Of a DNA stretch of 39,809 nucleotides, positions 3,671 to 6,378 are shown piece by piece (position 1 is the first letter of the stretch; each line of letters starts with the position of its first letter). The position numbers and the translations under genes are program-made. This DNA is from Bacilli bacterium (GTDB lineage Bacteria; Bacillota_I; Bacilli_A; RFN20; CAG-826), in the NCBI GenBank assembly GCA_024695105.1, contig JAILIV010000085.1, forward strand, positions 1 through 39,809. Reading direction: 5' to 3'. The notes beneath the pieces were generated by a model, which was not told the origin of the DNA, ran no database searches, and saw only the letters and a list, made by a program, of their open reading frames with translations.

Positions 3671-3736
3671 CCCGGAAAGCCGTATGCGTTGGGCGCCCCT
3701 AAAAGGAATCTTTGCCGGAAGAAGCATTACGGCGCT

Positions 3737-3787
3737 TAAGGGCAGGGCAACATTAAGGGCAGGGCAACATTAAGGGCAGGGCAACAT
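3737..3787. repeat. Perfect tandem repeat, 3 x 17 bp (TAAGGGCAGGGCAACAT)
   Basis: Three consecutive identical 17-mers at 3737-3753, 3754-3770, 3771-3787. Confidence 0.95.
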
Positions 3788-3821: not shown

Positions 3822-4460
3822 ATGAAGTTCTTTGTGTTCGCCATCGACGATGGAACCGTCTTTGATAAGAACGTCATCGCCATCTTCAACAAATATGGAA
3901 TCAAGGCGACGTTTAACCTCAACAGCGGTCTCCAGGATTTCGTGTGGTTTAAGGATTGGCTGGAGGTTCGCCGGCTAAGGTTAGAAGAGAATAAAGATAT
4001 TTACGATGGCCACGAGGTGGCCTCTCATTCTTTGACTCACCCATTTTTGACTTCGTTGTCCGATGAAGGCATCTATCGCGAAGTCAAAGAAGACATCGAT
4101 AACCTACGGAACATATTTCAACGTGACATCACGTCCTTCTCCTTCCCTTTCGATGGCTTTGACGAACGGTCCATCGGCATCATCAAGAACCTCGGGATCA
4201 CGCATATCATTCTCCCTGCGATCGATGACTCCTTCCGCCGTCCCGCGGACACGTATCACATCAAAGTGACTTCGTGGGACATCGATGACGCATTAGTAAA
4301 GGCGAAGAGATTTATTGAGGATGACCAAGCGGAGATGTTCGTCTACCTTTCTCATTCTTATGACTATGAATACGCTGGCAACTACGACAAATTGGAAAAG
4401 CTTTGTCAAATCGTAAGCGGAAACCAGGACATTAAGATCATTAACGTTAAGGACATTTAG
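3822..4460 (+). CDS. Polysaccharide deacetylase (NodB/CE4-like) family protein
   Basis: FAIDDGT...FNKYGIKATFNLNS...HEVASHSLTHPFL...FSFPFDGF matches CE4 motif order. Confidence 0.8.
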   Translation: MKFFVFAIDDGTVFDKNVIAIFNKYGIKATFNLNSGLQDFVWFKDWLEVRRLRLEENKDIYDGHEVASHSLTHPFLTSLSDEGIYREVKEDIDNLRNIFQRDITSFSFPFDGFDERSIGIIKNLGITHIILPAIDDSFRRPADTYHIKVTSWDIDDALVKAKRFIEDDQAEMFVYLSHSYDYEYAGNYDKLEKLCQIVSGNQDIKIINVKDI

Positions 4461-4536: not shown

Positions 4537-4878
4537 TTAACCAAACGTGATGGCGAGGAAAGCCATTAGTTCATCATTAGAGAGGAAACCGTTGATCTCG
4601 TAGAGGTATGGGCCGCAGTATTGGCGGATCTTATTTCCCTCCACCTCCGCGATGTAGTTGCCGCAATACCGACGCAGCCTTCGTCCATCGAATTCCAGAA
4701 GATACGGTCCGCAGTATTGCCGGATCTTATCTCCTTCGATTTGGTAGATTGAAGGCCCGCAGTAACGGCGCACCGTTTTCCCAGAAATCTCATAAAGGTA
4801 GGGTCCACAATAGTCTCGGATTTTGCCTCCGGTGATTTCCAAAATGTTGGGTCCACAGTATCTACGTATCGTTGCCAT
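4537..4878 (-). CDS. Small six-repeat protein, 16-aa repeats 'IRxYCGPYLYEIxGxK' (beta-flower-like)
   Basis: IRRYCGPNILEITGGK / IRDYCGPYLYEISGKT / VRRYCGPSIYQIEGDK / IRQYCGPYLLEFDGRR / LRRYCGNYIAEVEGNK / IRQYCGPYLYEINGFL, then SNDELMAFLAITFG. Confidence 0.8.
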   Translation of the reverse strand: MATIRRYCGPNILEITGGKIRDYCGPYLYEISGKTVRRYCGPSIYQIEGDKIRQYCGPYLLEFDGRRLRRYCGNYIAEVEGNKIRQYCGPYLYEINGFLSNDELMAFLAITFG

Positions 4879-4959
4879 ACGTGAATTGTACCACGAGGCG
4901 AGAATTCGCCCTTCGTTTTTCCACTTCTTGGATTATCATTATGCGGCGAGGTTTACGGT

Positions 4960-6378
4960 ATGCATTATGACGTTGTCCTCGTAGGTGCTGGACCTGCTGG
5001 TTATTTCGCGGCCTACGAACTGAACAAACTGAATCCAAATCTGAAGATTGCCTTAATCGATCGTGGCAACCCCATCGAGAAAAGACGCTGCCCCGTTTTG
5101 GAGCACAAGATCCAGAAGTGCCCCATGAATCCCAAAGGCTATGGCGGTTGCTCGCCCGCGTGCTCCATCACCAACGGCTTTGGTGGAGCAGGAGCCTATT
5201 CCGACGGCAAGTTCAACATCACCACCGAGTTTGGCGGATGGCTTACCGATTACATCAACGACGACGAGCTTTTGGACATCATTCGCTACGTGGATGAAAT
5301 CAATTTGAGCTTTGGGGCGACCGAAACCATTACGGATCCCGATGTTCCGGCGGTAAAACAGATCGAACGCCGCGCCATGGCGGCTGGATTAAAGCTTTTG
5401 CGGAGCAAAGTTCGCCATCTCGGTACCGAGGAGAATCTCAAAATCCTTACCCGCATCGCCGATTATCTGAAACCGCGCATCGACATGTTTTTTGGAATGA
5501 AAGTCCAAGACATCGTCGTGGAGGATGGCGCGGTCAAAGGCGTCGTCCTAGAAGACGGCCAGACTTTTGAAAGCGACTTCGTGTCCCTAAGCGTGGGCAG
5601 GGAAGGCAGCAAATGGCTTTCGGAGATCTTGGAGAAGCGCGGCGTGACCATGACCCAGAACCAAGTGGATTTGGGCGTCCGCGTCGAATGCCCCAACCTG
5701 GTCATGGAGGAAATCAATAACACCCTCTATGAAGGGAAGTTCATCTACCAAACCCAAAACGGGAATACCGTGCGCACGTTTTGCTCCAATCCGGGCGGTC
5801 ATGTCGTCGTGGAAAACTATGAGGGCGTAGTCAACGTGAACGGTCATTCTTATGGAGACCCGAAATTATCTTCCCCCAACACCAACTTCGCTTTGTTGGT
5901 ATCCCACCATTTCTCTGAGCCGTTTAAAGCTCCGAACGAATACGCGAAGAAAGTATCCTCCCTCGCCAATCAGTTGGCGTGCGGTGGCGTGCTTGTCCAA
6001 CGTTTTGGTGACATTAGGTTAGGTCGCCGTTCCACCGAGAAGCGCATCAAGGAGGGCTTCGTCCGTCCGACCCTTGCCGAAGCGGTCCCAGGCGATTTGA
6101 CCTTGTGCCTCCCGCATCGAACCATGGAGTCCATCATCGAGATGATCAACATCCTCGACAAGGTGACTCCGGGCATCGCCACCGAGCACACATTGCTTTA
6201 CGGCGTGGAGGCGAAGTACTATTCCGCCCACCCGGAAATCAGCAATGAACTGGAAGTGGCCTCAATCCATAACCTCTATGTCGGAGGGGACGGCGCGGGT
6301 CTTACCCGAGGCCTCGCCCAAGCGGGTGCTTCCGGCATCATGATTGCCCGAAATATCGCCAAAAAGATTGCAAAATAG
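4960..6378 (+). CDS. NAD(P)/FAD-dependent dehydrogenase (COG2509-like)
   Basis: N-terminal VVLVGAGPAGYFAAYEL dinucleotide-binding motif; Cys-rich CPMNPKGYGGCSPACSITNGFGGAGAYSDGKFN; C-terminal YVGGDGAGLTRGLAQAGASG. Confidence 0.85.
   Translation: MHYDVVLVGAGPAGYFAAYELNKLNPNLKIALIDRGNPIEKRRCPVLEHKIQKCPMNPKGYGGCSPACSITNGFGGAGAYSDGKFNITTEFGGWLTDYINDDELLDIIRYVDEINLSFGATETITDPDVPAVKQIERRAMAAGLKLLRSKVRHLGTEENLKILTRIADYLKPRIDMFFGMKVQDIVVEDGAVKGVVLEDGQTFESDFVSLSVGREGSKWLSEILEKRGVTMTQNQVDLGVRVECPNLVMEEINNTLYEGKFIYQTQNGNTVRTFCSNPGGHVVVENYEGVVNVNGHSYGDPKLSSPNTNFALLVSHHFSEPFKAPNEYAKKVSSLANQLACGGVLVQRFGDIRLGRRSTEKRIKEGFVRPTLAEAVPGDLTLCLPHRTMESIIEMINILDKVTPGIATEHTLLYGVEAKYYSAHPEISNELEVASIHNLYVGGDGAGLTRGLAQAGASGIMIARNIAKKIAK

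Follow-up and report, generated by a model that had tools for sequence, protein, structure and literature searches.

The window, a stretch of 39,809 nt on contig JAILIV010000085.1 (assembly GCA_024695105.1), encodes on its minus strand a small protein of 113 amino acids, which consists of Met-Ala followed by six 16-residue units (residues 3-98) and a 15-residue tail (residues 99-113) (Table 1). The protein lacks an apparent signal peptide and its charge is near neutral, with 15 basic versus 12 acidic residues. Both neighbouring genes, encoding a polysaccharide deacetylase (3822-4460, gap of 76 bp) and a FAD-dependent protein (4960-6378, gap of 81 bp), are located on the plus strand, and an extended -10 element precedes the start codon, in agreement with a first-pass annotation of the DNA that described a gene standing alone with its own -10 box. 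The element is missing from the output of a consensus promoter scanner because the scanner also demands a -35 element. As the -10 element ends 6 nt before the ATG, the mRNA of the six-unit gene may be leaderless or nearly so; TATAAT is found at a similar distance from the start in the homologues L066-L068, and several other homologues contain Shine-Dalgarno-like sequences instead. An inverted repeat, GGCGAGAATTCGCC (4897-4910), directly upstream of the -10 element is labelled terminator-like on the plus strand by the scanner and could possibly serve as an operator. Furthermore, positions 3736-3787, directly ahead of the polysaccharide deacetylase gene, hold a perfect 17-bp tandem repeat (TTAAGGGCAGGGCAACA, 3.1 copies).

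Table 1. Location of the six-unit gene, its repeat units and its promoter element in the window.
Feature	Coordinates	Strand	Basis
Six-unit protein gene, 113 aa	4537..4878 (stop codon included)	-	ORF, homologues, dN/dS
Unit/blade 1, TIRRYCGPNILEITGG, Arg type	4825..4872	-	Unit comparison
Unit/blade 2, KIRDYCGPYLYEISGK, acidic/polar type	4777..4824	-	Unit comparison
Unit/blade 3, TVRRYCGPSIYQIEGD, Arg type	4729..4776	-	Unit comparison
Unit/blade 4, KIRQYCGPYLLEFDGR, acidic/polar type	4681..4728	-	Unit comparison
Unit/blade 5, RLRRYCGNYIAEVEGN, Arg type	4633..4680	-	Unit comparison
Unit/blade 6, KIRQYCGPYLYEINGF, acidic/polar type	4585..4632	-	Unit comparison
Tail, LSNDELMAFLAITFG; helix residues 101-112, proposed barrel plug	4540..4584	-	DSSP of model, conservation
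Extended -10 element TGgTACAAT, 6 nt from ATG	4885..4893	-	Sequence

The periodicity of the protein is far above chance, with self-identities of 37/82 at a lag of 16 and 41/66 at a lag of 32 residues, whereas none of 20,000 shuffles gave more than 19 matches at any lag. The stronger signal at lag 32 indicates that the blades come in pairs, forming a 32-residue super-repeat. Neither this super-repeat nor the nature of the tail as a conserved helix had been noticed in the first-pass annotation. Its reading of six 16-residue repeats, each with a Cys, holds, as YCG is present in all six units; its term "near-perfect" overstates the likeness of the units, which are 38-81% identical at the amino acid level. 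At the nucleotide level the units share 46-67% identity, and the array is absent from the output of Tandem Repeats Finder. Where units have the same residue, they use the same codon at a frequency no higher than in synonymous shuffles (0.348 versus 0.363, z = -0.6; z between -1.7 and 2.4 across 20 genes), and dS between units is mostly saturated. Both results argue against an origin of the symmetry in recent gene conversion or tandem duplication, and the codon comparison makes recent gene conversion unlikely. This bears out the earlier statements that the repeat nucleotide sequences differ and that the repetition is maintained at the protein level. The symmetry could be accounted for by selection acting on every blade or by an ancient amplification whose synonymous sites have since become saturated. 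Units within one protein are slightly more alike than the same blade across proteins (0.593 versus 0.566). The gene thus illustrates how a protein can stay internally symmetric after its DNA repeats have become saturated with changes. The pairing of blades is also apparent at the residue preceding YCG, which is Arg in blades 1, 3 and 5 (31, 17 and 34 of 38 proteins, respectively) and Glu, Gln or Asp in blades 2, 4 and 6 (36, 24 and 37 of 38), with the alternation being loosest in blades 3 and 4.

Standalone homologues comprise 47 distinct proteins, 39 of which are exactly 113 amino acids long and the others 114-123. Counting the repeats in homologues, as the first-pass annotation had suggested, yielded six units, aligned together with the tail, in 47/47 proteins. 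With anchored paralogues and a small number of fragments counted in, homologues were detected in 16 of 61 near genomes, 16 of 392 genomes across the phylum and 63 of 196 genomes within the family; they are also present in named gut and rumen Bacilli assemblies. The dN/dS ratios range from 0.03 to 0.20 in the closest pairs, with a median of 0.24 over 83 pairs. The six-unit ORF is a real gene that is maintained by purifying selection and occurs sporadically in uncultured gut Bacilli. Four decayed copies, partial matches broken by stop codons, were identified (G330:C4:352340, G028:C4:15270, G540:C22:16750 and G539:C10:17661), in line with repeated gene loss. One further copy (L028:832-1173) is located on a short contig labelled Candidatus Colimorpha enterica (Bacteroidota), representing either a transfer or a mis-binned contig.

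A survey of the genomic context, likewise suggested by the first-pass annotation, covered about 46 loci and revealed a conserved gene order within two genera only, with neither a functional hint from the neighbours nor a consistent partner gene. The patchy distribution, the neighbours that vary between genera and the existence of broken copies could be read as signs of a mobile or accessory gene spread by transfer, for example one involved in phage defence. We regard this as very improbable, as the six-unit protein had no match in 50,697 phage and 72,556 plasmid records and no confirmed match in viral contigs, the gene holds a stable position in the conserved gene order of the two genera, and a consistent partner gene is lacking.

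On its own, the window protein scores below every Pfam cut-off. Its match to Bflower_3 ("6-fold beta flower protein") reaches 16.2 bits with a cut-off of 34 (E = 0.01), and the below-cut-off matches to SPATA2_PUB, RK-1 defensin, a paramyxovirus zinc finger and zf-CGNR were dismissed as noise. A homologue (L012) that is 35% identical over its full length and in register (E = 1.1e-20) exceeds the cut-offs of both Bflower_2 (46.8 versus 38 bits) and Bflower (27.8 versus 25 bits). Since repeat proteins can score by periodicity alone, nine control versions of this homologue were made in which the column order was shuffled inside the units while period, composition and tail were kept, none of which (0/9) matched any Bflower model. 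Among 27 members, ten match Bflower_3 and four match Bflower_2 at E ≤ 0.001, and a single member matches LOR (PF04525) weakly (E = 0.00098). Beta-flowers consist of 8, 10 or 12 strands in four- to six-fold petals with a [DNEQ]XXG tip motif, often carry a C-terminal hydrophobic helix and have been grouped with Tubby C-terminal domains, which are phosphoinositide binders or scramblases (Durairaj et al. 2023, PMC10584680). The tips of blades 2, 4 and 6 (DYCG, QYCG and QYCG) contain the complete motif, and RYCG of blades 1, 3 and 5 fits its XXG part only. The protein is, with high confidence, best placed among the six-fold beta-flowers (Pfam clan CL0395). The proposal of a six-bladed beta-flower in the first-pass annotation is thus supported by the family matches of the homologue, the failure of its shuffled controls, the modelled strands and helix and the constant number of six units.

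AlphaFold2 with ten aligned sequences predicted 12 short strands with YCGP loops (pLDDT 87.4, pTM 0.80) and a C-terminal helix at residues 101-112 (pLDDT about 86-91) that is conserved among homologues; two of the five alignment-based models failed. Neither a Foldseek search of the alignment-based model against the PDB and viral models (nothing significant) nor sequence and profile searches of the PDB retrieved a convincing relative, and for other flowers the founding paper likewise obtained no PDB match by Foldseek (PMC10584680). Prediction from the single sequence resulted in longer strands, two-residue turns and a poorly placed helix (pTM 0.66), and the best Foldseek match of this model was the open single-layer sheet of 4bxp (TM 0.65). 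An open structure, which the first-pass annotation had named as evidence against its ring, was therefore obtained in one of the two types of prediction, whereas the alignment-based model contains the expected strands and helix.

The protein could accordingly be an open single-layer beta-meander scaffold resembling the TCP10/G-box domain or MORN repeats, with a tail helix that is free or binds a partner, as the single-sequence model and its match to 4bxp would imply. We give the open model less weight in view of its badly positioned tail helix and of a pTM below that of the alignment-based model, which has a confident helix and does not match 4bxp. The number of repeats usually differs among open repeat arrays, whereas the homologues invariably contain six units, and the sequence relation to the Bflower families also argues against an open meander, which we consider to have little likelihood. 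A ring is preferred to an open sheet in view of the homology, the constant presence of six units and the conservation of the hydrophobic helix; we think it likely, with slightly less confidence than the family assignment, that the six units close into a ring, and the tail helix would then be enclosed by the barrel.

The Cys residues set the subfamily apart. Six Cys are present in 35 of the 47 homologues, five in one (L094), four in one (L061) and none in ten. In the clade of 37 Cys-containing members, which share a mean identity of 60%, Cys occupies 219 of 222 positions (99%) and is surpassed in conservation only by the following Gly, and the residue after this Gly varies. The Cys-equivalent position of other flowers is variable, with the top residue accounting for 43%, and members without Cys carry Ser, Tyr, Gly, Asn or Ala there. 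Val, Ala or Leu is tolerated at single Cys positions in L061 and L094. One member (L057) has Met at all six places, retains position-specific features of blades 4, 5 and 6 (LEF, AE and the final F) and groups with the Cys proteins even when the Cys columns are removed, with moderate support and many forks unresolved. Judging from these alignments, the six tip positions behave as a set that is constrained in the Cys clade. The Cys residues themselves are dispensable for the architecture, because one member is all-Met and nine others of the same architecture lack Cys.

Possibly, the six Cys bind metal or form disulfides. According to one alternative explanation, the protein is primarily a Cys-ring device, in which six thiols at one mouth bind Cu(I), Zn or Fe or switch by disulfides and the fold serves only as a scaffold. 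The near-invariance of Cys in a clade of this divergence, its all-or-none distribution and the fact that the only replacement of the whole set introduced Met, another ligand of soft metals, would fit such a device. However, fold and tail persist without Cys, single positions tolerate Val, Ala or Leu, and a rough estimate for a 12-strand barrel places the tips approximately 10 Å apart, a long distance for disulfides or for a metal shared between them; moreover, no metal-handling or redox gene recurs as a neighbour. Overall, this explanation seems improbable to us. A more specific variant, to which we assign a marginally lower likelihood still, is that the tip Cys are coupled as one symmetric site for a soft metal, redox chemistry or a small ligand at the mouth of the flower, kept or exchanged as a set via per-blade selection without gene conversion. 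If true, this six-thiol ring would represent the first defined activity of a beta-flower.

The explanation that we favour as a whole, at somewhat better than even confidence, is a small cytosolic six-bladed beta-flower that has a plug helix and docks at the membrane face. This overall confidence is a compromise among a high one in the fold family, a nearly as high one in ring closure and a low one in the docking role. Each 16-residue unit would form one beta-hairpin, consisting of a strand ([KR]I[KR]x), the tip YCGP, a second strand (YLYEI) and a tight turn (DG), and six hairpins would assemble into a shallow closed 12-strand barrel, the channel of which may be plugged by the hydrophobic C-terminal helix as in Tubby C-terminal domains. 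The alternation of Arg-type and Glu/Gln/Asp-type blades would create three blade pairs, and we infer that charge pairing holds neighbouring blades together. With the six Cys at equivalent hairpin tips on one mouth, the tips could form one symmetric packed or ligand-contacting surface. The most likely job of the protein would be docking at the cytosolic side of the membrane, with lipid headgroups or a partner protein as ligand, in the manner of Tubby-like domains; the cytosolic location and ligand binding are themselves inferred.

The genome that contains the window also encodes a paralogue of 259 amino acids (L002:1036-1815, G000:C68) in which two hydrophobic stretches and an acidic linker precede a C-terminal flower-like domain; this domain lacks the Cys and ends in a helix resembling that of the window protein. 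Many relatives encode related proteins of about 240-277 amino acids. The combination of hydrophobic stretches and a flower-like domain suggests that such domains are placed at a membrane, and this membrane-anchored paralogue together with the Tubby link leads us to favour docking at the cytosolic membrane face, a role that we propose by analogy and only tentatively. Electrostatic membrane binding of the window protein is not obvious, as its net charge is near neutral. Because the YCG subfamily is small, highly symmetric and sharply conserved at one residue in each of its six tips, and because all-Cys, all-Met and mixed variants occur naturally, it could be a convenient test case for beta-flower ligands. 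The beta-flower fold was first described from predicted models; no experimental study of it was found in the literature searched.

Among the known systems with which the protein can be compared, LH2-gamma of Rhodopseudomonas palustris (7zcu chain S) contains six 16-residue repeats with one pigment-binding Ser each (PMC9618040). It shares this repeat architecture with the window protein, and the ligand Ser is in register with the Cys, but LH2-gamma forms an extended ribbon instead of a ring and has no Bflower match. The comparison of the two proteins gave an E value of 0.43 and an hhalign probability of 37%, against a background in which 16-residue repeat proteins score too high with one another (up to 51 bits for permuted repeats), and kinship was set aside, as 156 of 3000 column permutations scored as high or higher. 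The TCP10/G-box domain of CPAP (4bxp), which the single-sequence model resembles, is an open single-layer sheet of eukaryotic origin with 7% identity, unmatched by the alignment-based model. Members of the Tubby C-terminal/LOR (PF04525)/scramblase superfamily belong to the same Pfam clan and form a 12-strand barrel around a hydrophobic helix, as proposed for the window protein; they differ in that their strands and loops are longer and one strand is circularly permuted (PMC10584680), and no structural match to them was found here. The closest likeness is to the beta-flowers PF21786 (Bflower_3, six-fold), PF21785 and PF21784, with tandem beta-hairpin units, a G-containing tip motif, a predicted 12-strand flower, a C-terminal hydrophobic helix and homologues above the family cut-offs. 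Unlike known beta-flowers, the YCG subfamily scores below these cut-offs, has a Cys at each of the six tips and switches between Arg and Glu from blade to blade. While the kind of fold is thus already known, the all-or-none six-Cys subfamily, the Arg/Glu blade alternation and the membrane-anchored paralogue are new.
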